DNA of 11,563 nucleotides from an uncultured Spirochaetaceae bacterium. Its GTDB lineage: Bacteria; Spirochaetota; Spirochaetia; Treponematales; Treponemataceae. The stretch lies in the NCBI GenBank assembly GCA_902773215.1, contig CACYDQ010000041.1, positions 1 to 11,563 of the forward strand, given 5' to 3'. The position numbers were made by a program, and so were the translations under genes. The notes below the pieces were generated by a model that saw nothing but the letters and a program-made list of their open reading frames with translations, ran no database searches and was not told the origin of the DNA. Positions 1-11,563 of this stretch are shown here, in pieces. The stretch's first letter is position 1; the number at the start of each line of letters is the position of its first letter.

Positions 1-1343
1 CGAAGGCCGCTCTGCAGGACCTGCGTTCCGTCGCCATTACGCTGGGCCTTGATATCGTGAAGTTCCTGATCCTGGGGATTGTCCTGCTTGTTCCGTTCAT
101 ACTGATTTATCTTCCTGTCATGCGTGGCAGCGGCGGCTACGACTGGGGAGAGGCTTTTTCCCTGTCGCCTGAGTTCGCCGACATACTGAACGTCGGGGAC
201 TCAAACCTTTTTCTGGGCCGCTTGATCCGCAGGCTGCACATGGACGGACGGGGAGAGCTTGAGGAGGGAATGAGCGTCGTCTTGTTCGCTGCCTATATCC
301 TTGCCCTTCGCTTTTTCCTGCGGAAGGGGCGGGAAGAGAGGGGACGGGGCCAGCTCTTCTTCTCCGTGCTCGCGCTGGCCTGCGCTGTCTGCCTTGTCCT
401 GCCGATGCGGATGAGCGGTATGGGCCTGTCCTTCTGGCGCTATCTTGTCTGGAAACTGATTCCTGGCGGCAAGTCCGTCCGCGCGGTGGCGAGGTTCCTG
501 TTTTTCCTGAGCTTCCCTATATCGGTCGTGGCATCGGTTTATGGAGAAAAAAAACTGAAGTCGTGCGGACACCCCAGGTTTGCGGCGGCATTTTCCGCCT
601 TTCTCCTGCTCCTGCTCTTCCTGACTCAAATCCGGCGCGGGGGAGTCTACAGTTATTGGAATGCCGGTTCGCACCGGGCTTTCGTTGCGTCCGTGCAGGA
701 GGCCCCGTCGTCTTGCGAGGCTTTTTATGTTTTCAATTCCGGGAACAAGATGCGGTCGGCGGAACAGGATCAGCTGGACGCTTTTGAGCTTGCATCCTGC
801 ATGAATGTGCCGACATTGAACGGATATTCCGGCGGGATGCCGGAAGGATGGGGAAAGCTGTGGGTTATTGCGGGCGAAGACTATCTTCCTGCCATTGCCT
901 ATATCTCTTTCAGTCAGGGACTTGATAACGTCTGGGGCCTGGACCTTGCGACCGGCAGCTGGAGCCGGCTGCCGCTTTCGTCCGACCTTATGAGGAGGGA
1001 AAGGTCGTGGAGATTCAACGGTACGCACATCGTCTGGGAAGGCTATGAGGCAGGTGGCAAGAGATACCTGAAGCCCCAGGGAATGAGCGAGGGACCGTAC
1101 TGGACTGTGTTTCCCGGAAATTATAAGGTAACTATAAAAGGCGAGAATTTAGGCGGGATGGAAATTGATGTCAACTCTGGGGCAGGAAAGACCCGCTATC
1201 CGTTCACGAGCGAGCTTTCCGAGGATCAGGTGCAAATCTGCTTCTCCGTCCAAGACACAGTTCCTGACCTGGAGGTTTTTATTCGGAACGTGTCTGACAA
1301 GCAGATGTGCCTCTCGTCTTTCGTCCTTGTCATGGAGGACTAA
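1..1343 (+). CDS. Polytopic membrane protein, GT-C glycosyltransferase-like, 3' part only
   Basis: The reading frame is open from base 3 with no upstream stop, so the gene enters from the left and its N-terminus is missing. A GTG at 57 is only an internal codon; residues below count from it. At least five hydrophobic segments are visible (about 1-21, 71-88, 98-117, 143-162, 174-191), followed by a soluble tail of about 235 residues, presumably outside the cytoplasmic membrane. Between membrane segments lies IPGGKSVRAVARF (135-147), a pattern familiar from GT-C type and YfhO-like membrane glycosyltransferases; the tail carries NGYSG (255-259), also common in such proteins. The last 90 residues are beta-rich and may form a jelly-roll or carbohydrate-binding module. 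The catalytic first loop would be upstream, so transferase activity cannot be checked. It converges on rubrerythrin. Membrane protein is nearly certain; the family assignment is inference. Confidence 0.6.
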   Translation, partial: KAALQDLRSVAITLGLDIVKFLILGIVLLVPFILIYLPVMRGSGGYDWGEAFSLSPEFADILNVGDSNLFLGRLIRRLHMDGRGELEEGMSVVLFAAYILALRFFLRKGREERGRGQLFFSVLALACAVCLVLPMRMSGMGLSFWRYLVWKLIPGGKSVRAVARFLFFLSFPISVVASVYGEKKLKSCGHPRFAAAFSAFLLLLLFLTQIRRGGVYSYWNAGSHRAFVASVQEAPSSCEAFYVFNSGNKMRSAEQDQLDAFELASCMNVPTLNGYSGGMPEGWGKLWVIAGEDYLPAIAYISFSQGLDNVWGLDLATGSWSRLPLSSDLMRRERSWRFNGTHIVWEGYEAGGKRYLKPQGMSEGPYWTVFPGNYKVTIKGENLGGMEIDVNSGAGKTRYPFTSELSEDQVQICFSVQDTVPDLEVFIRNVSDKQMCLSSFVLVMED

Positions 1344-1979: not shown

Positions 1980-1985
1980 CTCCTT
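1980..1985 (-). promoter_or_regulatory. Ribosome binding site of rubrerythrin
   Basis: Minus-strand AAGGAG with a 7-base spacer to ATG at 1972. It fixes the start and contrasts with neighbouring genes that lack any such motif. Confidence 0.85.
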
Positions 1986-2021: not shown

Positions 2022-2050
2022 AGACTATCCTTGCCGGGCAGGAATGTCAA
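2022..2050 (-). promoter_or_regulatory. Sigma-70 type promoter of rubrerythrin
   Basis: Minus strand: a perfect TTGACA (2050-2045), a 17-bp spacer, then TAGTCT (2027-2022), a weak -10. The predicted start near 2015 gives a leader of about 43 bases with a good Shine-Dalgarno. No clear PerR-like operator was recognised. Confidence 0.5.
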
Positions 2051-2086: not shown

Positions 2087-2118
2087 TTGAAACTGAGCGG
2101 AATTTATCATACTATATT
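2087..2118 (+). promoter_or_regulatory. Candidate promoter of the fliG homologue, predicting a leaderless or near-leaderless mRNA
   Basis: TTGAAA (2087-2092) lies 17 bp before TACTAT (2110-2115), while the better -10 match TATATT (2113-2118) ends 6 bases before the ATG at 2125. With either -10 the start site falls at or within about 3 bases of the start codon. No Shine-Dalgarno is present upstream of the ATG. Confidence 0.45.
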
Positions 2119-2124
2119 TCCAAT

Positions 2125-3486
2125 ATGAAGCTGAACGATTATATGCTCGATGCCTACAAGAAGGCTTCTGATGATGAGCCCGCCGTCCGCAAGCCGGTTT
2201 TTGAGAAGCTAAGCCGCCAATCCGGTGAGAAGCAGGGACAGGAAGAGGCTGGCAGGAAGCCCCTCGTGCATAAGCCCATTTTCGAGAAGGTGAACAGCCG
2301 CGTCGGAGAGATTCTGGGGCAGGAAGAGGCCGACCGCAAGAACCTGGAGGAGGCCAAGATTGCCGCCAAGACGGGCATCTGGTACGGAAAGACTCCGGTT
2401 AAGCCTACGGATGCGGACGTGCGGAAAGCCGCCAGGCCGTTGACGGAGGGGGCACTGGTAAAGGTTCCCCAGTTGCCGAGGGAGGCTGACGGCAGGGAGA
2501 GCATATACCGCAGGGTCGCCAAGTTCCTCGTCATCATCGGCGTGGACGAGGCCGCCAAGATAATCCCCCAGCTCGGTGAGGAGCAGATAGAGAAAATCAT
2601 GCCGGAGATTGCCTCCATCCGGTCTGTGCCCAAGGATGAGGCCGAGCAGATACTCAAGGAGTTCGAGTCCCTCTTGGACAAAGCCCGCGAGGAGGGGGGC
2701 ATAGACACGGCCCGCACCATACTGACCAAAGCCTACGGGGAGAAGAAGGGGGAGGAAATCCTCGGCCGGGTCATCCAGTACCCCAACGGCAGGCCCTTCG
2801 ACTTCCTGTCCGAGGCGGGAGCTGACCGCATAGGTGTCCTTTTGAACGGGGAGAGCGAGCAGGTGCAGGCCCTCGTCCTGTCCCAGATAGAGCCCAAGAA
2901 AGCCGCCGCCGTCATAAAGGAGATGGACGACAAGACCAAGAGCGCGGTCGTCATCCGCCTGGTCAAGATGAAGAACGTAGCCCCCCAGGTCATGGAGAGC
3001 GTCAGCAAGAGCCTGTACGAGAAAATGCTCTCCCAGAACACCGAGGTGTCCCAGTCGCTGGACGGCAAGAACGTCCTCGCTCAGATTCTCAAGCGGATGG
3101 ACCCGTCTACGGAATCCAACCTGATCGCGGCCCTGTCCGGCGAGGACCCGGAACTCGGCGCGGACATACGCAGGAGGCTTTTCACCGAGGACGACCTGGT
3201 GAACGCGGAGGACCGCTACTTGCAGAACAAACTGCATGACATGGACGACAAGACGATTGCGATTCTCATAAAGGGCAAGAAGCCCGAATTCCGGGACAAA
3301 ATCCTTTCTAACCTGTCCAAACGAAGGGCGGAGAGCGTGCTGGACGAGGAGTCCGTCACCGAGTTCCTGCTCAAGAGCGAGAGCGAGCGCGTCACCTCCC
3401 AGTTCTTCGCCGATTTGCGCCGCGCCTGGGAAGCGGGCGAGATGCGCGTCAAGGGCCGGGACGACGATGAAATCTGGGTACAGTGA
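2125..3486 (+). CDS. fliG: Flagellar motor switch protein FliG homologue, FliG1-like with long N-terminal extension
   Basis: A 453-residue protein; ordinary FliG is about 330-345. FliG forms part of the C-ring at the cytoplasmic base of the flagellar motor and couples to the stator to generate torque. FliG-like sequence starts near residue 127 (VAKFLVIIGVDEAAKIIPQL), followed by the middle domain (about 225-305) and the C-terminal domain (about 312-453). The torque helix keeps its charge pattern: K384 in IKGKK, then KRRAESVLDEES, where E. coli has K264, R281, D288 and D289. The middle-domain EHPQ motif is degenerate (ESEQ, 244-247). Residues 1-120 are charged and contain a repeated segment. 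The ATG at 2125 was chosen because the upstream frame is low in coding character and overlaps the rubrerythrin control region. It lies among non-flagellar genes, matching the solitary extra FliG of spirochaetes; the FliG1 label is inference. Confidence 0.88.
   Translation: MKLNDYMLDAYKKASDDEPAVRKPVFEKLSRQSGEKQGQEEAGRKPLVHKPIFEKVNSRVGEILGQEEADRKNLEEAKIAAKTGIWYGKTPVKPTDADVRKAARPLTEGALVKVPQLPREADGRESIYRRVAKFLVIIGVDEAAKIIPQLGEEQIEKIMPEIASIRSVPKDEAEQILKEFESLLDKAREEGGIDTARTILTKAYGEKKGEEILGRVIQYPNGRPFDFLSEAGADRIGVLLNGESEQVQALVLSQIEPKKAAAVIKEMDDKTKSAVVIRLVKMKNVAPQVMESVSKSLYEKMLSQNTEVSQSLDGKNVLAQILKRMDPSTESNLIAALSGEDPELGADIRRRLFTEDDLVNAEDRYLQNKLHDMDDKTIAILIKGKKPEFRDKILSNLSKRRAESVLDEESVTEFLLKSESERVTSQFFADLRRAWEAGEMRVKGRDDDEIWVQ
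2191..2340 (+). repeat. Tandem 27-residue protein repeat in the FliG N-terminal extension
   Basis: Residues 23-45 and 50-72 align without gaps over 23 positions with 14 identities, sharing KP(V/I)FEK, GE and GQEEA-RK. The 81-bp period keeps frame. The DNA copies have diverged, so this is an old duplication. Confidence 0.75.
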
Positions 3487-3526
3487 GGAAGTCTGTCTCT
3501 CATTCTGTGTCAGTCAAATGGCTTTT

Positions 3527-3626
3527 CGGCGGCCGCCGGACTTGCGGATAAGCGCTGCGACCGCCTCTCATAAAAAATTTTAAAATTTTTCTGCACGAAG
3601 TTTCGTTTTTTATCACCTGTGGACAA
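3527..3626. promoter_or_regulatory. Non-coding control region upstream of ssb: A/T palindrome flanked by DnaA-box-like sites
   Basis: The 276 bases between fliG and ssb show no credible gene. Visible elements are the 12-bp G/C palindrome CGGCGGCCGCCG (3527-3538); a minus-strand TTATCCGCA (3543-3551), 8 of 9 to the DnaA box TTATCCACA; a perfect 18-bp palindrome of A4-5/T4-5 tracts (3573-3590), probably bent DNA; and a minus-strand TTGTCCACA (3618-3626), also 8 of 9. TATTAT (3631-3636) is a possible -10 but lacks a good -35. The 3655-3700 part is rich in short G/C inverted repeats (AGCC-CTTC-GGCT, GCCGGC, ACCGGT), suggesting a structured ssb leader. No U-tract terminator for fliG is evident. 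Functional meaning is inference. Confidence 0.35.
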
Positions 3627-3750
3627 TGAATATTATGTAGGTTTTGAAAGGCTGATAAGCCCTTCGGCTGCCCGCCGGCTGTGACCGGTCCTTCCGCTGG
3701 GTGCCAGGGGGTTACGGCTTTCAGTTCCTGCGAAAACCATCTTCAGTAAA

Positions 3751-3755
3751 AGGAG
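3751..3755 (+). promoter_or_regulatory. Ribosome binding site of ssb
   Basis: AGGAG, preceded by AAA, 7 bases before the ATG at 3763. It is the only strong Shine-Dalgarno among the plus-strand genes here. Confidence 0.85.
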
Positions 3756-3762
3756 AAAGCGT

Positions 3763-4248
3763 ATGAATTCATTGAACCAGATTATCCTTGAGGGAAACGT
3801 GAGCAGGCAGCCGGAGCTGAGGCAGTCGGCGACAGGAACGAACGTGTGCGTTATTCCGATTGCCGTGAACCGCTCGTACAAGAATGTCAAGGGCGAGTCC
3901 GTGGAGGAAGTGTCATTCTTCGATGTCACATCGTTTGGAAAGACAGCCGAGGTATGCTCCAAGTACGCCACAATCGGACGGCATGTCCGTGTTGTCGGCA
4001 GGCTCAAGCAGGACCGTTGGAAGAACCTTGAGGGCAAGTCGCAGAGCAAGATAAACATCATTGCCGAGCATGTGGAGCTTTTGAACCTGCCCCGCAAGCA
4101 GTCCGAAGGGGCGTTCAGCCGCACGTCTGGGAAGCCTGCCGGGGCTGGTTACGGGGCTGACGAGCAGACTCTGGTCGCAACCAATGCCGCCGCCTGCGAG
4201 CAGCAGGATATTGAGGATACCGTGGGCGAGGAAATTCCCGCCTTTTAG
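3763..4248 (+). CDS. ssb: Single-stranded DNA-binding protein
   Basis: A 161-residue SSB, within the usual bacterial range. It coats single-stranded DNA during replication, recombination and repair and recruits partner proteins through its C-terminal tail. The OB fold spans about residues 1-108: it opens with MNSLNQIILEGNVSRQPELR, has the strand SFFDVTSFGK (51-60) where other SSBs carry aromatic base-stacking residues, and GRLKQDRW with W86. A flexible linker rich in Gly, Ala and Gln follows (about 110-148). The acidic tail is EDTVGEEIPAF, so the usual terminal DDIPF appears as EEIPAF with an Ala before the final Phe. The start is set by AGGAG 7 bases upstream. It appears monocistronic and is not beside rpsF/rpsR as in many bacteria. 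Confidence 0.96.
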   Translation: MNSLNQIILEGNVSRQPELRQSATGTNVCVIPIAVNRSYKNVKGESVEEVSFFDVTSFGKTAEVCSKYATIGRHVRVVGRLKQDRWKNLEGKSQSKINIIAEHVELLNLPRKQSEGAFSRTSGKPAGAGYGADEQTLVATNAAACEQQDIEDTVGEEIPAF

Positions 4249-4274
4249 TGCGGGTACCCCTGTCTAAGACCTCC

Positions 4275-4309
4275 CTCTCCCCGTGGGGGTATATGCCTCT
4301 CGGGGAGGG
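4275..4309 (+). other. Stem-loop downstream of ssb
   Basis: CTCTCCCCG (4275-4283) pairs with CGGGGAGGG (4301-4309) through 9 bp including one T-G wobble, with a 17-base loop. An alternative small CCCC-GT-GGGG hairpin sits in the left half. No T-tract follows, so it is not a classical intrinsic terminator; it may block 3' exonucleases or act with Rho. Nothing else was recognised between ssb and the next promoter. Confidence 0.4.
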
Positions 4310-4330
4310 AATCCTCCGGAATGTACTCGG

Positions 4331-4359
4331 TTGAAGAAATTCCCCTCGTATGATACAGT
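4331..4359 (+). promoter_or_regulatory. Candidate promoter of the M16C peptidase gene, near-leaderless
   Basis: TTGAAG (4331-4336), a 17-bp spacer, then TACAGT (4354-4359), which ends 9 bases before the ATG at 4369. The predicted start lies within about 3 bases of the ATG, and no Shine-Dalgarno is visible. Both hexamers are imperfect. Confidence 0.35.
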
Positions 4360-4368
4360 ATCCTCGTT

Positions 4369-7300
4369 ATGAAGGTGAACGACGTTTACAAGGGTTTCAG
4401 GGTTTTGTCGGTTTCGGATGTGAGGGATTATGATTCAACGGCAGTCCACCTCCGGCATGAGGAGAGCGGGCTTGAGGTATTCAAGCTGCTCAATGATGAC
4501 AGCGAGAACTGCTTCGCCTTTGCCTTCCGCACGCCCTGCGAGAACAGCACGGGTGTCGCGCACGCGATAGAACATTCGGTCTTGTGCGGGTCAAAATCCT
4601 ATCCGCTCAAAGACCCCTTCATCAGCCTGGAGAACCAGAGCGTCAACACCTACCTGAACGCCTACACCTGCCCGGAGCACACGGTATATCCGTCCTGCTC
4701 CCCGGTCAAAGCGGACTTCTTTAACATCTTCTCTGTCTATGCGGATGCGGTGTTTTTCCCTTTGCTCAAGGAGGGGGCCTTTTTGCAGGAGTGCCACCGC
4801 ATGGAGCTGGACAAGGACGGGAATCCCTGCCTACAAGGGGTCGTCTACAACGAGATGAAGGGCAACTATGCCTCATTCGAGGATGTAGCCTATGATTCGA
4901 TAAACCGCCCCGTCATGGAGGGGAGCGAGTACGTTCATGATTCGGGCGGAGACCCGCTCGTCATCCCCTCGCTCACGTATGAGGCCTTCAAGGACTACCA
5001 CAGGCGTTACTACTGCACGGCCAACTGCCTCTGCTACCTCTACGGGAACATCCCGCTGGAAGAGGAGCTGGACTTCCTCGTGGAGCACGTCACGGGCCGC
5101 GTCAGCTCATATGGAAAGAAAGCCGAATATCCGTCGCCGGATTTCTCAAAGCCCGTCAAGGACAGGGTAAAGGCCTTTGCCCCGGCGGGGGAGGGGGGCG
5201 AGGATTCCCGCCGCGTCGTCGCGATGAACTGGAGGCTCAGCGACGGGCTTGAGAAAGAGGATTTGCTTCCGTTCAACATGCAGTTCTCCTTCTTGTCCGA
5301 GCTCCTGTGGGGGGACGACAGTGCGCCTGTTTCCAAGAAGATGCTTGCCTCAAAAATCGGCGATTCGGTTGCTCCGTACACGGGATTCTCATCCGCGAGC
5401 CGCTTTCCGACGATATGCTTCTCTATGAGCGGAGTCCGGGAGGGGGACGAGGAGAAGTTCCGGCTCCTGCTTCGCGAGGTTCTGAGGGATATTGCCGACA
5501 AGGGGATTTCAAACGAGGACTTTGACAGGACGGCGATGACCTTTGACTTTTTCAACAGGGAGATACGGAGACCGGGCGGCTCCCCTTTCTCGCTCAGCCT
5601 GATGCGGCGGGCGGTGAAGAGCTGGCTCTTCGGCTTCCCGCCGGACGGGGCTCTGTCCTACCGGGAGGAGATTGAATCTCTCAAACGTCGGATAAAGGAG
5701 AACCCCGCCCTGCTGCCCGGCCTCATAGACAAATATCTTCTGGGCAATGCCCGCTGCTCGCTCGTTTCCGTAGACCCTTCTGCTGAGTGGGAGAAGGAGC
5801 GGGCGGACAAAGAGCAGAAGCTGACCAAGCAGGAGTTCGCTGCCTTGGGCAAGGATAAGCTGCTCGCTGACCTCGAGAAGATGAGGGAATTCCAGAATTC
5901 CGATGACGATGACAGCTGTCTGCCTCACCTGCATCTTGCTGATTTGCCGCGGAAGCTTGACAAAATCACTATGACCGAAGAGGCTGCGGGGGGCGTTCCC
6001 TTCTTTGTCAGCAGGGAGCCGACAAACGGGATAACGTACTTTGACATAGGCTTTCCCTTTGACACGCTGGATCCGGAGGATTACCTCTACGTGACCCTGC
6101 TTGCAAGTTTGGTCTCCCAGGTTGGATTTACGGGCAAAGCCTGGGACGAGGTGATGAGCAGGATAGGGGCGGTGTCCGGCAGCTTTGGGGCAGATGCCAG
6201 GAGTTTCAATTCCGACCTGACCGGGCAGAAAGATTCTTCTGAAAATCCCTATGTGGAGCGGGATATGTTCTTTTTCCGTTTCAAGTGCCTGGATGAAAAA
6301 GTGAAGGATAACCTGGATATCTTATCCTCATATTTGGAGGGAATGGATTTCTCCGATGAGAAGCGCCTTACCGACCTGCTCGCCTCTAATGCGAATGATG
6401 CCAAGTCTTCTGTCCTGCCCGACGCGCATCATTATGCGATGTACCGGGCTTCGAGGAATCGAGGCCCCAAGTTTGCGATACGGGAGATTCTTCTGGGGCT
6501 CACGGCCGTCGTATTCGCTTGCAAGCTCAAGGATATGGATATCAAAGCTTTGTCCGCACGGCTTGAGGCTATCTACCGCAAGATACTCAGCGGCGGGGCG
6601 GTGATACACGTGACGGCAGAAGAAGCCCAAATCCCCGCGTTGCGTTCTTCCGTGGCGGAGTTCGTTGCCCGGAACAAGCTTGCGCCCCTCTGTCCCCGGC
6701 CTGTGATGACAGCGGAACGGGCTGCCGGCCTGCTGAAGCTGACCGAGTTCGAAGGGGAGCAGACTCAGGCGGACGGAAAAGACAAGCCTGCCGATAAGAT
6801 TTGTATCGATGAGATTTTCGTCATACCCGGCTCTGTCGCCTTCGATGCGAAATGCTGTGGGTCGAGCCCCGTTAATACTAAGGAATCTGTGGCGGACCAG
6901 GTGTTCGCGCACTGCCTTTCCATGACCGACCTCTGGGACAAGGTGCGGACCAAGGGTGGGGCATACGGGGTGTTTTTCAATCCTCAGGCTCTCACCGAGA
7001 CGAGCTATTTTGTCACCTACCGCGACCCCAAACCTTTCCTTTCGCTTTCCGCTTTGTCAGATTCCATGAACGATGAGAAAACCTCCGTATTCACGGACGA
7101 GGAGGTGGAGAAGGCGATAACCGGATGCTATTCATCGGAGATTACGCCGGAGACTCCTTCCCTCAAGGGGTCACGGGGCTTCCTCTGGCTTTTTACGGGC
7201 GGCTCTAACGAGAAGCGGGAGCGCAGGGTCGGACAGCTGTTGGACATCAGCAAGGAAGACCTTAAGGCCTCCTGCCTGCGCTACAGGGAAAACTTTGACA

Positions 7301-7392
7301 AGGATTCCTCCGTGGTCATCCTCTGCCCCAGGGCAATCATGGATGATAAAGTTGTCGAATCTACTGGAAAAATAATCGTCTTGCCGTTATAA
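4369..7392 (+). CDS. M16C family zinc metallopeptidase, PreP-like
   Basis: A 1007-residue protein, typical for the presequence protease (PreP/Cym1) branch of family M16, which degrades unfolded peptides of some tens of residues inside a closed two-half chamber. The inverted zinc motif HxxEH is H65-A-I-E68-H69, with E68 as general base; the third zinc ligand is probably E162 in VVYNEMKGNY, 93 residues on, as the family requires. The M16C-associated hinge and middle region covers roughly 450-720. In the C-terminal half VRTKGGAYG (859-867) supplies the Arg/Tyr pair (R860, Y866) that binds substrate in active members. There is no signal peptide, so it is probably cytoplasmic. The ATG at 4369 has no Shine-Dalgarno, but the homology begins directly after it. 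Its stop overlaps the -10 of the next gene. Confidence 0.95.
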   Translation: MKVNDVYKGFRVLSVSDVRDYDSTAVHLRHEESGLEVFKLLNDDSENCFAFAFRTPCENSTGVAHAIEHSVLCGSKSYPLKDPFISLENQSVNTYLNAYTCPEHTVYPSCSPVKADFFNIFSVYADAVFFPLLKEGAFLQECHRMELDKDGNPCLQGVVYNEMKGNYASFEDVAYDSINRPVMEGSEYVHDSGGDPLVIPSLTYEAFKDYHRRYYCTANCLCYLYGNIPLEEELDFLVEHVTGRVSSYGKKAEYPSPDFSKPVKDRVKAFAPAGEGGEDSRRVVAMNWRLSDGLEKEDLLPFNMQFSFLSELLWGDDSAPVSKKMLASKIGDSVAPYTGFSSASRFPTICFSMSGVREGDEEKFRLLLREVLRDIADKGISNEDFDRTAMTFDFFNREIRRPGGSPFSLSLMRRAVKSWLFGFPPDGALSYREEIESLKRRIKENPALLPGLIDKYLLGNARCSLVSVDPSAEWEKERADKEQKLTKQEFAALGKDKLLADLEKMREFQNSDDDDSCLPHLHLADLPRKLDKITMTEEAAGGVPFFVSREPTNGITYFDIGFPFDTLDPEDYLYVTLLASLVSQVGFTGKAWDEVMSRIGAVSGSFGADARSFNSDLTGQKDSSENPYVERDMFFFRFKCLDEKVKDNLDILSSYLEGMDFSDEKRLTDLLASNANDAKSSVLPDAHHYAMYRASRNRGPKFAIREILLGLTAVVFACKLKDMDIKALSARLEAIYRKILSGGAVIHVTAEEAQIPALRSSVAEFVARNKLAPLCPRPVMTAERAAGLLKLTEFEGEQTQADGKDKPADKICIDEIFVIPGSVAFDAKCCGSSPVNTKESVADQVFAHCLSMTDLWDKVRTKGGAYGVFFNPQALTETSYFVTYRDPKPFLSLSALSDSMNDEKTSVFTDEEVEKAITGCYSSEITPETPSLKGSRGFLWLFTGGSNEKRERRVGQLLDISKEDLKASCLRYRENFDKDSSVVILCPRAIMDDKVVESTGKIIVLPL

Positions 7393-7393
7393 T
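7365..7393 (+). promoter_or_regulatory. Promoter overlapping the peptidase stop codon, predicting leaderless mRNA for the 78-residue protein
   Basis: TGGAAA (7365-7370), a 17-bp spacer, then a perfect TATAAT (7388-7393) that contains the TAA stop of the upstream gene. The ATG at 7402 begins 9 bases after the -10, so transcription should start at or just before it. There is no Shine-Dalgarno. Confidence 0.5.
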
Positions 7394-7401
7394 AGAAGCA
7401 A

Positions 7402-7638
7402 ATGAGTGAGAAGATGAGCAAGGTCGGAAATTTGGTCAAGATGATACGGCAGTTAGTCTCGGACGTGCAGGGCGCGCCATATCCCGGGCAGGGATTCGAG
7501 CCCGAGGTCTATCGGATTTGGTACGAGCACGTCCAGAAGAATGCGCAGGACTGCTATGAGTTCCTTGACGCGAATTTCCCGCTGGAATCCAAGGAGTTCA
7601 ACCAGTCAATTGACAAGATGTTCAAGAAAAATGTTTGA
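7402..7638 (+). CDS. Small hypothetical protein, 78 residues
   Basis: I do not recognise this protein. It is hydrophilic, without a signal peptide or membrane segment, and probably helical. The N-terminal half, SKVGNLVKMIRQLVSDVQ, could form an amphipathic helix; the middle has YPGQGFEPEVYRIWYEHV, rich in aromatics; the tail is lysine-rich (DKMFKKNV). A single Cys (52) is the only obvious metal or redox candidate. The ATG at 7402 is preferred because of the TATAAT 9 bases upstream; ATG at 7414 is possible. It follows the M16C peptidase by 9 bases, so it may also be read through from that gene. Codon use resembles its neighbours, supporting a real gene. Confidence 0.7.
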   Translation: MSEKMSKVGNLVKMIRQLVSDVQGAPYPGQGFEPEVYRIWYEHVQKNAQDCYEFLDANFPLESKEFNQSIDKMFKKNV

Positions 7639-7680
7639 ACAAAAGGTTTAAAACGCCTGTTGCAGATGCCGACCATATAA

Positions 7681-7704
7681 GAAGGAAAAAGGAAGGGTTC
7701 CTTC
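7681..7704 (+). other. Purine-rich hairpin upstream of the tocopherol-cyclase-like gene
   Basis: GAAGGAA (7681-7687) is a perfect inverted match to TTCCTTC (7698-7704) with a 10-base loop; an alternative AAGGAA-GGG-TTCCTT stem competes with it. TATAAG at 7676 just upstream is a weak -10 candidate without a matching -35. The hairpin may lie in the leader and affect translation, or end the preceding transcript weakly. The role is unknown. Confidence 0.35.
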
Positions 7705-7726
7705 TAAAACGTGGGTGGGTATGGCA

Positions 7727-8905
7727 ATGGATTTAAACAAAGTCAGTCGCAGCAGGCGCTATAAGCTTACGGGCTTGTTGAAGAAGAACGGCTTTGACCG
7801 CTGGAGGATAAGTGCAAGCGCGATAAGCTCCGTGACGGGTGAGGAATGTACGTTCTTCATCGAGTTCTACATTGTCAATCCTGCCCTCTCCCCTGACAAA
7901 GCCGTCCTTGGCTTCAAGAGCCGTCTGCCCAAGACCGATACCGATTTGCAATATGCTCTTGCAGGGACGGAGAACGAGAAGACTCTGCTTACCGAGGAAT
8001 TCGTTCAGCCTTCCTTCGTCATGGTCAAAGCCGGAAAGCTTTCCAAACATGGCAAACAGATCAATGCCTATTTCCCCTGTTCCTCGCTCGTGACAGGAAC
8101 TCCTGAGTACATCGTAAAGGTAGGCACGGATGGCAACGATAGCTGCTATATAAAGGCCAACGCGACTTCCGGTTCCATTTCTGTTTCCGGTGCCGACCTT
8201 CTGGAGCGGCCGGAGCTTCTGGGGGATTCCGGCGCCATCGCATGGAACCTGCACTATTCGATAGAGGACGGCTTTTTCCCGAATTTCCGGAGCAAACAGA
8301 CCAACTGGGCGTGCTTCGGGGCGAGGACGAGCATCGCCGGGGTCATCGTGATGGACGGCGAGCAGTTCAATGTCAGCAAGGACAGGTCTTACGGATACTT
8401 CGACAAGAACTGGGGGCGGTGTTTCACGAATCCTTTCCTGCACCTCAGTTCATCAAACATGGTCAGCAACATAAGCGGCAAGAAACTCCTTGAGTCCTGC
8501 TTCGCCATACAGGGGGAGTACAACAGCAGGCTCTGCATCCTCACTTCGATAGAGGGCAAGAAGCTGGAATTCCATGCGGGCAGCCATAAGAAATATAATA
8601 CGATCTATGAGTGCACGCAGATGCCTGAGGACGAGGACGGAATCAAGCTGCACTGGTCCGTCAGCATGGATAACAGAAGCCATGTCATAGACGTGGACAT
8701 TGTATGCAATGCTGAGAAAATGTTTGTCCGCGATTACGAGTGCCCGGAAGGAAACCGCAAGGTGTTGAAGCTGATTGGCGGCGGAAGCGGCACCGGCGAG
8801 GTAAAAATCTATAAGCGGGTCAGAAAAGACCTGGAGCTGATAGAGGACGTGCATATCAGTAACTGCCTCTGCGAGTTCGGTAACATCGAGACAGCCGAGA
8901 AATAA
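7727..8905 (+). CDS. Tocopherol-cyclase-like / lipocalin-fold (AttH/CrtC-like) protein
   Basis: A soluble protein of about 392 residues without a signal peptide or membrane segment. The pattern WNLHYSIEDGFFPNF (173-187), then RSYGYFDKNWGRCF with the FDKNWG core at 225-230, resembles bacterial relatives of plant and cyanobacterial tocopherol cyclase, a two-barrel lipocalin-like fold shared with AttH and hydroxyneurosporene hydratase (CrtC). Family members bind hydrophobic substrates; no tocopherol pathway is expected in a spirochaete, so the substrate is unknown. Starts at GTG 7715, ATG 7721 and ATG 7727 are in frame; 7727 is preferred because GGGTGGG (7713-7719) sits 7 bases before it, but this is weak. 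The gene converges on the FnIII/TPR gene with 15 bases between stops and no terminator. The fold family is moderately certain; the function is not. Confidence 0.7.
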   Translation: MDLNKVSRSRRYKLTGLLKKNGFDRWRISASAISSVTGEECTFFIEFYIVNPALSPDKAVLGFKSRLPKTDTDLQYALAGTENEKTLLTEEFVQPSFVMVKAGKLSKHGKQINAYFPCSSLVTGTPEYIVKVGTDGNDSCYIKANATSGSISVSGADLLERPELLGDSGAIAWNLHYSIEDGFFPNFRSKQTNWACFGARTSIAGVIVMDGEQFNVSKDRSYGYFDKNWGRCFTNPFLHLSSSNMVSNISGKKLLESCFAIQGEYNSRLCILTSIEGKKLEFHAGSHKKYNTIYECTQMPEDEDGIKLHWSVSMDNRSHVIDVDIVCNAEKMFVRDYECPEGNRKVLKLIGGGSGTGEVKIYKRVRKDLELIEDVHISNCLCEFGNIETAEK

Positions 8906-8920
8906 TTACTCACACTTCTT

Positions 8921-10036
8921 TCAGAGCAAGTCAATGCAGGAATCTATCCACTTTCCCGCAAGCTCGGGAAAGCTGTCCTGCACGGTCAGGAATAGGTTTA
9001 GCGCATTTTCGTAGTTGTCGGTGAAGTACTCCGCCTCGGCCAGGTAGAAGGTGGCCCGCTTTGTCGCTCCTTCTTCCCGGTGCTGCGACAGGAATGCGGA
9101 AAGCTTTGTCTTTGCCTGCACGTAGCTGTACTGCATCCAGCCTTCATTGAGAATCTCATACAGAAGCCAGTCGTCTCCCCCTGCCGGGACAACCTGGTCC
9201 TCGCTGAATATGTGGCGGAAGAGGGGCTCGGTCTTCCGTTTGGACTCCTTCCTTGCAGGAAGCAGGAGGGCTGCGTTTCTCTCCGACTGGAAGGAGATTT
9301 GCCGCTCCTTGTTCTGCGTCTCCTCCTCTTCCCGGATGATTTCCGTTACCTTCCGGGAACTTGTGTCGCGCGGAGTGTCCGTGCTCCGCGGCATCGTGCC
9401 CGCCATGACGGGCAAATCCGTCTTGCTCAGGCTTTCTGTTGCCGCCGGCAGGTCATCGGCTGCCAGCTTCCCGCCGCGCGTACCTTCATGTGCGTCAGGT
9501 ATGAGGCTTGCGGTGTAGCCCGGGGCTTGCCCGGCTGAGGCCCGTACCGGGGCAACCGTGGAATTCAAGCCGGGAAGGACTGCGGCGTAGAGCATCCCGG
9601 AATCTTCATCTACCCTGCTGTCGCCGTCCGGCCCGTCAAGCTCCTCGTCGTAGTAGAGCCCGGCATAACCGTCTTCCTTCTTCTGTTTGTCCACAAAGGT
9701 AAGGATTGCATAGTAGTAGGACTTGCCGTCATCTGCCTCGTCGGTATAGGAGATGTGGGTCTTGGGTACGGCTGCTATGGGGAAAAGGGACCTGGCCCGT
9801 GCGCTGCTGTAGATAGGACGCTGGTCACGATAAATTGCGAAGAAGAGAATGCTGCTCCTGTCCTTTCCCTCTGGTAACGTCCAGCTCAGGCGTATCTTGC
9901 CGCCTCCAGCATCCTCTGCCTGCAGGTTCGAGACGCAGAGAGAGTCTCCTGCCTCGCTGCCTGCTGCTTGGGCAGGAGCTATGAAAGCCAGGGCGGACAG
10001 GATCAGCGATGCGAGAAGGACCTTAATCGTTTTCAT
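8921..10036 (-). CDS. Exported protein with fibronectin-III-like domain and TPR-like C-terminus
   Basis: A 371-residue protein with a clear signal peptide: MKTIK, then a hydrophobic core to residue 20 and a probable cleavage after AQA (24). There is no lipobox Cys, so it should be soluble in the periplasm or surface-attached. Residues about 34-116 look like a fibronectin type III domain (IRLSWTLPEG, FFAIYRDQRPI, YYYAILTFVD). An acidic stretch DGPDGDSRVDEDSG (134-147) might bind calcium. Residues about 160-275 are low complexity, rich in Ala, Pro, Ser, Lys and Glu, and probably disordered. The end (326-370) resembles a TPR unit: ATFYLAEAEYFTDNYENALNLFL. It lies 48 bases downstream of the pseudo-rhomboid gene on the same strand, so co-transcription is likely; only a weak AGG precedes its ATG. 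Function unknown. Confidence 0.8.
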   Translation of the reverse strand: MKTIKVLLASLILSALAFIAPAQAAGSEAGDSLCVSNLQAEDAGGGKIRLSWTLPEGKDRSSILFFAIYRDQRPIYSSARARSLFPIAAVPKTHISYTDEADDGKSYYYAILTFVDKQKKEDGYAGLYYDEELDGPDGDSRVDEDSGMLYAAVLPGLNSTVAPVRASAGQAPGYTASLIPDAHEGTRGGKLAADDLPAATESLSKTDLPVMAGTMPRSTDTPRDTSSRKVTEIIREEEETQNKERQISFQSERNAALLLPARKESKRKTEPLFRHIFSEDQVVPAGGDDWLLYEILNEGWMQYSYVQAKTKLSAFLSQHREEGATKRATFYLAEAEYFTDNYENALNLFLTVQDSFPELAGKWIDSCIDLL

Positions 10037-10051
10037 ACAAGCCTATCTTGT

Positions 10052-10080
10052 TTTATCGGGCGAATTTGGTCTTGTGACAA
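10052..10080 (-). promoter_or_regulatory. Weak candidate internal promoter for the exported FnIII protein
   Basis: Minus strand TTGTCA (10080-10075), a 17-bp spacer, then GATAAA (10057-10052), giving a leader of about 9 bases before the ATG at 10036. The -10 is poor, so read-through from the upstream gene is at least as likely. Confidence 0.25.
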
Positions 10081-10084
10081 GGGC

Positions 10085-10849
10085 TTATATGTCAAGGGTC
10101 TCTGTGAAGGTGTCGTCAGAACCGGCCATGACCGTCTCGTCCTTGCTGATGTCCAGCCTTCCTTTCTTCTCGTTCTTGTTCGGCTTTGCTTTGGGCCGTG
10201 CCGCTGTCTTCGGACGGCTCGTACCCGTGCCCTTTCCCAAGATGAAGACGGAGGGGATGCTGCCCGCAATGCCTCCAGCAAGGGAGATGAGGATGGGAAG
10301 GCATGGCTTGAGCATTTCCATGGGGCTGGCCGGCACGATCGGAACGATGACAGCGTATGCGCGGAGGGCGGTGAATGCGAGGAAGGCGAGAATCCAGCTG
10401 AAGGAGATGACCGAACCCGAGAGACTGATGAAGAAGTTCAGGAGGAGCAGCATGAAAATAAGCGGGTCTGGCCCCTGCACGGAAAAACCGGGAATCAGGC
10501 ATGCGATGACCCCCGAGACCAGGGCGGACAGGAGCATCATGACGGCGAGGGGCAGGGATCCGGCCCCCTCCTCTGCGCTCCTCCCCAGAATGAGCAGGAC
10601 AAGGGCGTTCCTGAGCAGGGGAATCCAGCTGTCAGAGCCCAGCACATGGGCGAAGAGGCGGACGTAATCCAGCGGGGCGCGGACATCTATCGTGGAGCAG
10701 GAGAGCAGCCAGCTGGTCAGGCTCTGCCCCTCGGGGAGGGGGAGCCTGCTGTGGATCGAGATATCAAGCGCGTAGGCAGCGATGTATGCGAATACGAGCA
10801 GGATGGTCACGGGCGCATCGAACGAGAAAGAATATCTTTTTTTAGCCAT
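10085..10849 (-). CDS. Rhomboid-fold membrane protein, predicted catalytically inactive (pseudo-rhomboid)
   Basis: A 254-residue protein with about six hydrophobic segments (13-30, 79-90, 101-119, 129-147, 150-170, 182-204) and a polar, lysine-rich tail (206-254). The segment from R64 (RLFAHVLGSDSWIPLLRNAL), continuing LGRSAEEGAGS to LLSALVSG, aligns closely with E. coli GlpG (RYFTHALMHFSLMHILFN... LGGAVEKRLGS... LISALLSG). Active rhomboids need a GxSG serine and a histidine near the last helix. Here the GLSG site reads GPDP (126-129), so the serine is D128; the oxyanion-region histidines are S72 and P77; no His occurs in ISLAGGIAG (188-196). N81 remains. It should therefore bind or traffic membrane clients rather than cleave them. 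The ATG at 10849 has no Shine-Dalgarno but lies exactly 7 bases after a -10. It is the first gene of a probable operon with the exported FnIII protein. Confidence 0.72.
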   Translation of the reverse strand: MAKKRYSFSFDAPVTILLVFAYIAAYALDISIHSRLPLPEGQSLTSWLLSCSTIDVRAPLDYVRLFAHVLGSDSWIPLLRNALVLLILGRSAEEGAGSLPLAVMMLLSALVSGVIACLIPGFSVQGPDPLIFMLLLLNFFISLSGSVISFSWILAFLAFTALRAYAVIVPIVPASPMEMLKPCLPILISLAGGIAGSIPSVFILGKGTGTSRPKTAARPKAKPNKNEKKGRLDISKDETVMAGSDDTFTETLDI

Positions 10850-10855
10850 AGGAAC

Positions 10856-10884
10856 AGTTTAAGCCCAAAGCCCCCTTTTGTCAA
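10856..10884 (-). promoter_or_regulatory. Promoter of the pseudo-rhomboid gene, predicting leaderless mRNA
   Basis: Minus strand: a perfect TTGACA (10884-10879), a 17-bp spacer, and TAAACT (10861-10856). Six bases separate the -10 from the ATG at 10849, so the A of the ATG is the expected first transcribed base. Its -35 overlaps the -35 of the divergent NAD synthetase promoter. Confidence 0.6.
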
Positions 10885-10904
10885 ACCCGGCTTCCTGCTA
10901 TAAT
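10878..10904 (+). promoter_or_regulatory. Promoter of nadE, predicting leaderless mRNA
   Basis: A perfect TATAAT (10899-10904) stands 6 bases before the ATG at 10911, so transcription should begin at the start codon. The -35 is either TTGTCA (10878-10883, 15-bp spacer) or TTTTGT (10876-10881, 17-bp spacer). No Shine-Dalgarno is present. Confidence 0.6.
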
Positions 10905-10910
10905 GCCCGC

Positions 10911-11563
10911 ATGAAGTATTCAGTTCTCAGGGCTGCGGCGGTCAGCCCTTCACTCATAGTGGCGGACTGCGATTACAACGCAGGTCAGATTATCTCCTCC
11001 ATACGGGAGGCATACTCCCGGGGAGCGAGGCTCGCCGTATTCCCCGAGCTGTGCCTGACAGGCTATACCTGCGGGGATCTCTTTGCCCAGAATTCCCTTA
11101 TCAAAGCGGGTGTCAAGGCCCTTCTCCGCATAGCCGACGAGACCCGGGATTTGGGCATCCTGTCCGTCGTCGGGCTGCCTCTCGCCGTGGACGGCGTGCG
11201 CTACAACACGGCGGCCTTCGTCAACAAGGGTGAGGTTCTTGCCATCATCCCCAAGGTTTATATCCCCAATTACGGGGAATTCTACGAGCGGCGCTGGTTC
11301 TCGCCGCCGGTCCGGGGTACGCCCGACACCGTATTCCTGTCCCAGGAGATGTGCGAGGTGCCGTTCGGCCTGAACCTGATGCTGCAGGACAAGGACGACA
11401 ACCTGCTCAAGGTCGCCGCCGAAATATGCGAGGACGCATGGGTTCCCTTCTCTCCGTCCATCCGCCACAGCCTGAACGGGGCGACCGTCATCGTGAACTT
11501 GAGCGCGAGCAACGAGGTCGTCGGCAAGGCAAGCTACCGCAGGCAGCTGGTCTCATCCCTGTC
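10911..11563 (+). CDS. nadE: Glutamine-dependent NAD+ synthetase, N-terminal part (cut by window edge)
   Basis: The first 217 residues of a protein that runs off the right end. They form the nitrilase-type glutaminase domain that frees ammonia from glutamine; the ATP-dependent synthetase domain, which converts deamido-NAD+ to NAD+, would follow outside the window. The nitrilase triad is visible: E46 in VFPELCLTGYTCGDLF, K115 in IIPKVYIPNYGEFYERRWF, and the nucleophile C173 in AAEICEDAW. GYTCGDLF and the NYGEFYE-RRWF segment are characteristic of two-domain NadE rather than of simple amidases. The ATG at 10911 matches the natural start of homologues and lies 6 bases after TATAAT with no Shine-Dalgarno. 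The cytoplasmic enzyme completes NAD biosynthesis. It is divergent from the pseudo-rhomboid gene across 61 bases. Confidence 0.93.
   Translation, partial: MKYSVLRAAAVSPSLIVADCDYNAGQIISSIREAYSRGARLAVFPELCLTGYTCGDLFAQNSLIKAGVKALLRIADETRDLGILSVVGLPLAVDGVRYNTAAFVNKGEVLAIIPKVYIPNYGEFYERRWFSPPVRGTPDTVFLSQEMCEVPFGLNLMLQDKDDNLLKVAAEICEDAWVPFSPSIRHSLNGATVIVNLSASNEVVGKASYRRQLVSSL

Follow-up and report, generated by a model that had tools for sequence, protein, structure and literature searches.

Four genes in an 11,563-nt stretch of DNA from an uncultured Spirochaetaceae bacterium very probably produce transcripts that start at the ATG or approximately 3 bases before it, from sigma-70-type promoters which represent a genome-wide class. 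This stretch (the window) is the entire contig C41 (GenBank accession: CACYDQ010000041.1) of a 2.69 Mb assembly in 523 contigs (GCA_902773215.1). The four genes, named here by their start positions, encode a FliG-family paralogue (2125), an M16C metallopeptidase (4369), a rhomboid-like membrane protein (10849, minus strand) and the N-terminal part of NAD+ synthase (10911). An earlier note on this DNA had read these genes, together with a small gene called at 7402, as leaderless or nearly leaderless; that reading held for the four genes and did not hold for 7402.

Promoters adjoining conserved start codons

Inspection of the upstream regions revealed the -10-like hexamers that had been listed earlier. 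TACTAT or TATATT at 2125, TACAGT at 4369, TATAAT at 7402, TAAACT at 10849 and TATAAT at 10911 end 9 or 6, 9, 8, 6 and 6 bases before the respective ATG. None of the five starts, 2125, 4369, 7402, 10849 and 10911, is preceded by a Shine-Dalgarno match of at least 4 bases, as had also been stated. The best pairs of -35 and -10 elements gave the architectures TTGAAA-N17-TACTAT-N9-ATG for 2125, TTGAAG-N17-TACAGT-N9-ATG for 4369 and TTGACA-N17-TAAACT-N6-ATG for 10849, all three with a -35 at the proper spacing of 17, and TGCTATAAT-N6-ATG for 10911. The first T of the TANNNT hexamer lies 12 bases before the start at 10849 and 10911 and 15 bases before it at 2125 and 4369. A gap of exactly 6 bases, claimed before for three genes, could be confirmed for two of them only (10849 and 10911), as the conserved -10 of 2125 is TACTAT with a gap of 9. 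The competing TATATT of 2125 (gap 6) was rejected; its spacer to TTGAAA is 20 and its position is not the conserved one. Transcription usually starts at the seventh base after the -10 hexamer, and by this rule the predicted leaders of 2125, 4369, 10849 and 10911 are about 3, about 3, 0 and 0 nt.

According to the proposed mechanism, a sigma-70-type promoter (TTGaaa, a 17-base spacer, often TGn, and TAtaaT) would directly adjoin the gene, and RNA polymerase would start at the A of the ATG (gap 6) or approximately 1–3 bases before it (gap 7–9). A start at or near the ATG leaves no room for a Shine-Dalgarno in the mRNA. Other bacteria are able to translate from a 5'-terminal AUG by direct 70S or IF2-assisted binding, and by analogy translation of these genes may begin in the same way. 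A second class in the same genome would carry longer leaders and AAGGAG-type sites. The window genes rbr and ssb are of this type, each having a 6-base AAGGAG match as reported previously. The rbr promoter TTGACA-N17-TAGTCT ends 49 bases before the ATG, which predicts a leader of about 43 nt, in agreement with the earlier estimate. In ssb, the 60-odd bases before the start contained no TAnnnT hexamer, and the promoter of this gene was not located. The two initiation classes proposed for this region, promoter-abutting starts and the Shine-Dalgarno type of rbr and ssb, could thus both be recognized.

Conservation was evaluated among sequence-distinct orthologues in which an ATG lay close to the alignable start, counting as a hexamer any TAnnnT that matched TATAAT in at least 4 of 6 positions at a gap of 5–10. 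The fliG paralogue had the hexamer in 29 of 33 distinct orthologues (2 without an ATG near the start and 52 partial ones set aside), appearing in the near clade as TANNAT at gap 8 (loci L003–L006) or 9 (L007). NAD+ synthase had it in 24 of 30, 20 of them at gap 6 (2 without a nearby ATG and 5 partial ones set aside), and all four rhomboid orthologues found keep it at gap 6. M16C showed TTGMAR-N17-TANAGT before a conserved ATG in 6/6 near relatives (L002–L007), with a gap of 9 in five and 10 in L005. Alignments with the near relatives reach residue 1 with a conserved ATG for all four genes. Outside the near clade, protein identity is only about 41–66% for the orthologues of NAD+ synthase and fliG, and the surroundings of the hexamer have diverged by eye; since the hexamer-to-ATG gap is kept in diverged sequence, it is the geometry that has been held and not the sequence. 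The arrangement seems, from this distribution, to be old within Treponema.

Genome-wide occurrence and gene content of the window

Genes were called by codon usage alone, leaving upstream signals unused, with a simple home-made caller. A set of 120 contigs of the same genome was used, of which 89 were readable (the window's included; 546,786 readable bases) and 31 read as N; the latter yield no genes, and counts over all contigs and over readable contigs differ only slightly. The mean contig GC content of 0.42 was dismissed as an artefact of the 31 N contigs, as 63 of the 89 readable contigs lie at 0.55–0.60.

The distance of such hexamers from the start codon was plotted across the genome, the check which the earlier note had proposed, and a sharp peak at gaps 6–9 could be observed in genes without a Shine-Dalgarno. 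TAnnnT occurred at gap 6–9 in 47 of 126 unit-first ATG genes of this kind, against a mean of 7.5 and a maximum of 15 in 200 rounds of dinucleotide shuffling. Counts by gap ranged from 0 to 5 at gaps 0–5 and rose to 21, 13, 10 and 9 at gaps 6, 7, 8 and 9; the mode of 6 places the first T 12 bases upstream of the start. On readable contigs, genes with a Shine-Dalgarno match shorter than 5 bases had the hexamer at gap 6–9 in 53/162 cases (shuffle mean 9.2, maximum 18, 200 rounds) and 50/155 when the window contig was left out. The composite TTG-N16–18-TAnnnT at gap 5–10 was present in 39/162 (shuffle mean 1.1, maximum 4). When 61 genes were aligned on their hexamers, a -35 TTG stood at spacer 17 in 30, any other spacer between 8 and 27 accounting for 0–4 genes, and the TGn position had T in 54% and G in 60%. 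Internal in-frame ATGs of the same genome had the hexamer at gap 6–9 in 44 of 3,536 cases. A small E. coli K-12 control (50 kb) gave 1/28 unit-first ATG genes with the hexamer at gap 6–9 and no composite. Judged by the excess over shuffles, approximately 44 of 227 unit-first ATG genes would be leaderless or nearly so, corresponding to roughly 12% of the 377 genes for which a start was called.

The search was extended to 59 more loci whose titles name Treponema or other Spirochaetaceae/Spirochaetes and which belong neither to the near clade nor to the next group. The hexamer at gap 6–9 was present in 103/308 genes (shuffle mean 34.2, maximum 49), the composite in 59 genes (4.5, maximum 12), and the hexamer was absent from all 92 genes whose Shine-Dalgarno match reached at least 5 bases. 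The higher chance level reflects the more AT-rich sequence of these loci (mean GC 0.43). At least one such gene was found in 52 of 58 further loci, which is weak evidence because chance alone gives about one third of the hits there. A named set within the 59 (T. parvum, T. socranskii, T. bryantii and strain Marseille-Q4130; six loci) gave 12/24 for genes without a Shine-Dalgarno, 6/19 for those with a 4-base match and 0/8 for those with a longer match. Loci fetched through NAD+ synthase and fliG gave 27/42 and were kept out of the main count, having been chosen by the very genes under study. Predicted promoter-abutting starts are general in this genome and in the sampled Treponema loci.

Functional assignment with Pfam (E up to 1e-8, window contig left out) was conducted on 30 of 36 leaderless-type genes, omitting the longest and the five shortest, and on 30 of 63 Shine-Dalgarno genes taken at random. 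A family was found for 27/30 and 26/30, respectively. The leaderless-type set includes alanyl-tRNA synthetase, an EF-G-family protein, chorismate synthase, UDP-glucose dehydrogenase and transporters; the Shine-Dalgarno set includes chemotaxis receptors, BspA-type repeats, L25, a sigma factor and threonine synthase. Both classes are functionally mixed; the earlier suggestion that leaderless initiation is common for metabolic and housekeeping genes is not established as a preference of the class. Among paralogues of AAA-ATPase_like (PF09820; L172:2462–3754, L189:2356–3942, L103:3063–4730 and L172:1–222), two have leaderless-type promoters and two have a Shine-Dalgarno. Three of the five window genes begin with ATGAAG, and 2125 and 4369 share 13 of their first 15 bases, as noted before. 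This likeness was set aside as a mark of the class: ATGAAG starts were counted in 8/60 leaderless-type and 7/108 Shine-Dalgarno genes, and a lysine second codon in 13/60 and 17/108, so that ATGAAG is not clearly special on these counts.

The features of the window are collected in Table 1. Compared with the M16C gene of the window, identity was 81% in L002, which comes from a goat-rumen Treponema assembly, and 83% in L007, from an assembly of an uncultured Spirochaetaceae bacterium. The same genus is listed for 35 of the searched genomes, and the source is taken to be a Treponema of the gut type. Among the window proteins scanned, no Pfam match was obtained for the genes 3–1343 (plus), 7721 (plus) and 10036 (minus). 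The truncated NAD+ synthase matched PRK02628 with 230.5 bits, the cut-off of 473 being set for the full-length protein. Its gene apparently resumes on contig C122, the first bases of which encode the same last 28 residues (window 11478–11561) with 100% identity. The genes at 10849 and 10911 form a divergent leaderless-type pair whose ATGs are separated by 61 bases and whose -35 elements overlap within TTTGTCAAA; this layout is kept in L004–L007 (61–63 bases between the ATGs).

Table 1. Genes and start-site signals of the window, with positions in the 11,563-nt stretch
Feature	Position	Strand	Basis or detail
Rubrerythrin gene rbr	start 1972	-	
Shine-Dalgarno AAGGAG of rbr	1980..1985	-	6-base match, spacing 7
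rbr promoter	TTGACA 2045–2050, TAGTCT 2022–2027	-	N17 spacer
-35 TTGAAA, fliG paralogue	2087..2092	+	spacer 17 to TACTAT; TTGAAA or TTGCAA at the same place in L003–L007
-10 TACTAT, fliG paralogue	2110..2115	+	gap 9 to ATG 2125; predicted leader about 3 nt
FliG-family paralogue with N-terminal extension, predicted near-leaderless	2125..3486	+	Pfam FliG_N/M/C
Shine-Dalgarno AAGGAG of ssb	3750..3755	+	6-base match, spacing 7
ssb	start 3763	+	
-35 TTGAAG, M16C	4331..4336	+	spacer 17; TTGAAR or TTGCAG in L002–L007
-10 TACAGT, M16C	4354..4359	+	gap 9 to ATG 4369; predicted leader about 3 nt
PreP-like M16C metallopeptidase, predicted near-leaderless	4369..7392	+	Pfam M16C_assoc, Peptidase_M16_C, PreP_C, Peptidase_M16
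Promoter TGGAAA-N17-TATAAT	7365..7393	+	overlaps the 3' end of M16C including its stop codon
Small conserved protein, likely start 7414	7414..7638	+	no Pfam match
Rhomboid-like membrane protein, predicted leaderless	10085..10849	-	weak Pfam Rhomboid match, E 1.2e-4, just over cut-off
-10 TAAACT, rhomboid-like gene	10856..10861	-	gap 6 to ATG 10849; predicted leader 0
-35 TTGACA, rhomboid-like gene	10879..10884	-	spacer 17; TTGACA also in L004–L007
Possible weak -35 TTGTCA, NAD+ synthase	10878..10883	+	spacer 15; overlaps the -35 of the divergent gene
Extended -10 TGCTATAAT, NAD+ synthase	10896..10904	+	gap 6 to ATG 10911; predicted leader 0
NAD+ synthase, N-terminal part, predicted leaderless, cut by contig end	10911..11561	+	NCBIfam PRK02628

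Alternative readings and the exception at 7402

Chance is one alternative, as AT-rich hexamers of this kind are common and five genes had been picked by eye. Such hexamers do occur at gap 6–9 before 12 of the 319 window ATGs on both strands; five of the 12 are the genes in question, which is more than chance would give. The genome-wide excess above every shuffle and the cross-species conservation lead to rejection of chance by the counts, and we consider it extremely improbable. It would also be conceivable that the AT-rich stretch is not a promoter and serves as an initiation element of low structure or for ribosomal protein S1. A bias of this nature around -20 to -10 has been described for non-Shine-Dalgarno genes of several phyla, possibly as S1 sites (PMC5397173). 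However, a specific hexamer which dinucleotide shuffles do not reproduce, with TTG at exactly 17 in 30/61 genes and a TGn extension, would not be expected of such an element, making this explanation very improbable.

Another possibility is that the promoters are real and the called starts are wrong, translation proceeding from a downstream start with a leader and a ribosome-binding site. For the small gene at 7402 this is likely to be true. The other four genes align to residue 1 with a conserved ATG, and internal ATGs do not show the peak, which renders wrong starts improbable as the general explanation. Finally, the near promoters may be secondary, with most transcripts coming from a promoter further upstream with a leader or from operon read-through. 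The promoter of 7402 is embedded in the 3' end of the gene before it, and more distant upstream promoters are possible genome-wide. Against this, the peak was found mainly in unit-first genes, while within-unit genes without a Shine-Dalgarno had the hexamer at gap 6–9 in only 4/56 cases. At the pair 10849/10911, the 61 bases between the ATGs and the overlapping -35 elements leave little room for further promoters. Altogether, upstream transcription as the main source appears unlikely.

Transcription from promoters adjoining the ATG is thus the preferred explanation, and several observations weigh against it. The hexamer is not in place in 6/30 NAD+ synthase and 4/33 fliG orthologues, and a Shine-Dalgarno match of at least 5 bases precedes 3/30 NAD+ synthase orthologues, one of at least 4 bases 9/30. 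The sole TTG-type -35 at 10911 has only a 15-base spacer, and the home-made caller shifted the start of 10849 to 10810. The hexamer was missing from all 65 genes whose Shine-Dalgarno match was at least 5 bases long, a contrast partly forced by construction as the Shine-Dalgarno fills the same bases. Outside the Treponema loci, other families of the order and sediment relatives (11 loci) gave 5/48 (shuffle mean 1.4, maximum 5) with 2 composites (0.2, maximum 2), a signal which is suggestive only and too thin to judge. For M16C, in particular, 54 distinct orthologues had an ATG close to the start, and of these only 10 had the hexamer (gap 5–10), while 38 had a Shine-Dalgarno match of at least 4 bases (48 without a nearby ATG and 1 partial set aside); the predicted initiation mode of M16C is not conserved beyond the near clade.

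Gene arrangement offers a possible account of the M16C case. Matches to the fliG paralogue and M16C abut or overlap (13 bases or fewer between their ends) in L008–L011, L016, L045 and L074. The two genes are separated by 72–236 bases in L003–L007, and M16C has its own promoter. By this arrangement, M16C appears to have gained its near-leaderless promoter on leaving the operon. The M16C match at L074:2911–5969 comes in two pieces, residues 1–249 at 62% and 250–1007 at 39% identity. The window has ssb between the two genes (3487–4368); ssb was not found by tblastn of the loci of 137 relatives.

The gene at 7402 has a conserved start further downstream that comes with a ribosome-binding site, evidence which the earlier note had named as speaking against its view; the other four keep their ATG. 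An ATG within three codons of the 7414 equivalent is present in 56/61 relatives (not de-duplicated), 51 of these 56 with a Shine-Dalgarno match of at least 4 bases and 37 with one of at least 5. TATAAT occurs up to 60 bases upstream in 46 of the 56, at varied distances. The ATG at 7402 itself is not a conserved start: L003–L006 have no equivalent of it, and TATAAT-N8-ATG as in the window could be seen only in the two closest relatives, L002 and L007, among 26 matches listed. The TATAAT (7388–7393) consists of the last Leu codon and stop codon of M16C plus one base and ends 8 bases before ATG 7402; by eye, the following T of the box is kept in several other Treponema. The promoter before the small gene is most likely real and the gene leadered from 7414, with a predicted leader of about 14 nt, rather than leaderless at 7402, which likely fails as a leaderless gene and so counts against the class as first drawn. 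The start at 7402 may still be used in the window, as the window's own Shine-Dalgarno for 7414 is weak (4 bases).

Relation to known leaderless systems and implications

Leaderless genes with this geometry are already known from many bacteria, and leaderless mRNAs also from Leptospira and Borrelia; these Treponema genes are a well-supported new addition. Leptospira belongs to a more distant spirochaete branch and Borrelia to another family. The closest precedent is the survey of TA-led genes of bacteria by Zheng et al. 2011 (PMC3160421), in which TANNNT begins approximately 12 bases before the start in genes without a Shine-Dalgarno, as in the present genome. That survey gives TA-led leaderless genes in 6 of 18 Spirochaetes genomes, with a mean of 3.9% of genes (1.8–6.9), and the word Treponema is absent from its main text. 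The excess here, approximately 12% of the 377 called genes, was obtained by another method; leaderless starts look commoner here than this one survey suggested. Leptospira interrogans is likewise a spirochaete with leaderless mRNAs, approximately 440 having leaders shorter than 10 nt by dRNA-seq (PMC5243855); they were measured there and are predicted here. That study reported no common promoter motif besides sigma-54, whereas a clear TTG-N17-TATAAT could be seen here. Borrelia burgdorferi, also a spirochaete with leaderless transcripts, is said to have them at high frequency, in a mention only (PMC10618245). The promoter of the Treponema denticola flaA gene cluster, with TTGACT and TATACT and a start mapped by RLM-RACE (PMC9481697), differs in that its transcript has a leader; being mapped, it indicates that the consensus used here is realistic.

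Among the papers listed by literature searches for leaderless together with Treponema, spirochetes or Borrelia, with subscription papers mostly outside their reach, none was by title or abstract opening about leaderless mRNAs in Treponema. In two T. pallidum papers containing the word, it describes antimicrobial peptides or occurs in a cited reference. No genome-wide transcription-start map for Treponema was found in limited searches, part of which were uninformative for this genus.

A wider proposal can be put forward only tentatively, and we rate it as possible rather than probable: leaderless initiation may be ancestral and gene-specific in Treponema, with NAD+ synthase and the extended FliG paralogue having kept leaders of 0–3 bases, as a state under selection, despite divergence of the remaining upstream bases, and such genes could form a co-regulated translational class. 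The M16C orthologues, with the near-leaderless promoter present in the near clade and mostly absent elsewhere, provide a comparison set, and the 7402/7414 gene, with an ATG near the predicted start of a leadered transcript, may show one class turning into the other. Gene finders which lean on the Shine-Dalgarno may misplace starts in these genomes. Promoter-abutting starts would allow a near base-exact, gene-by-gene prediction of transcript starts in Treponema.

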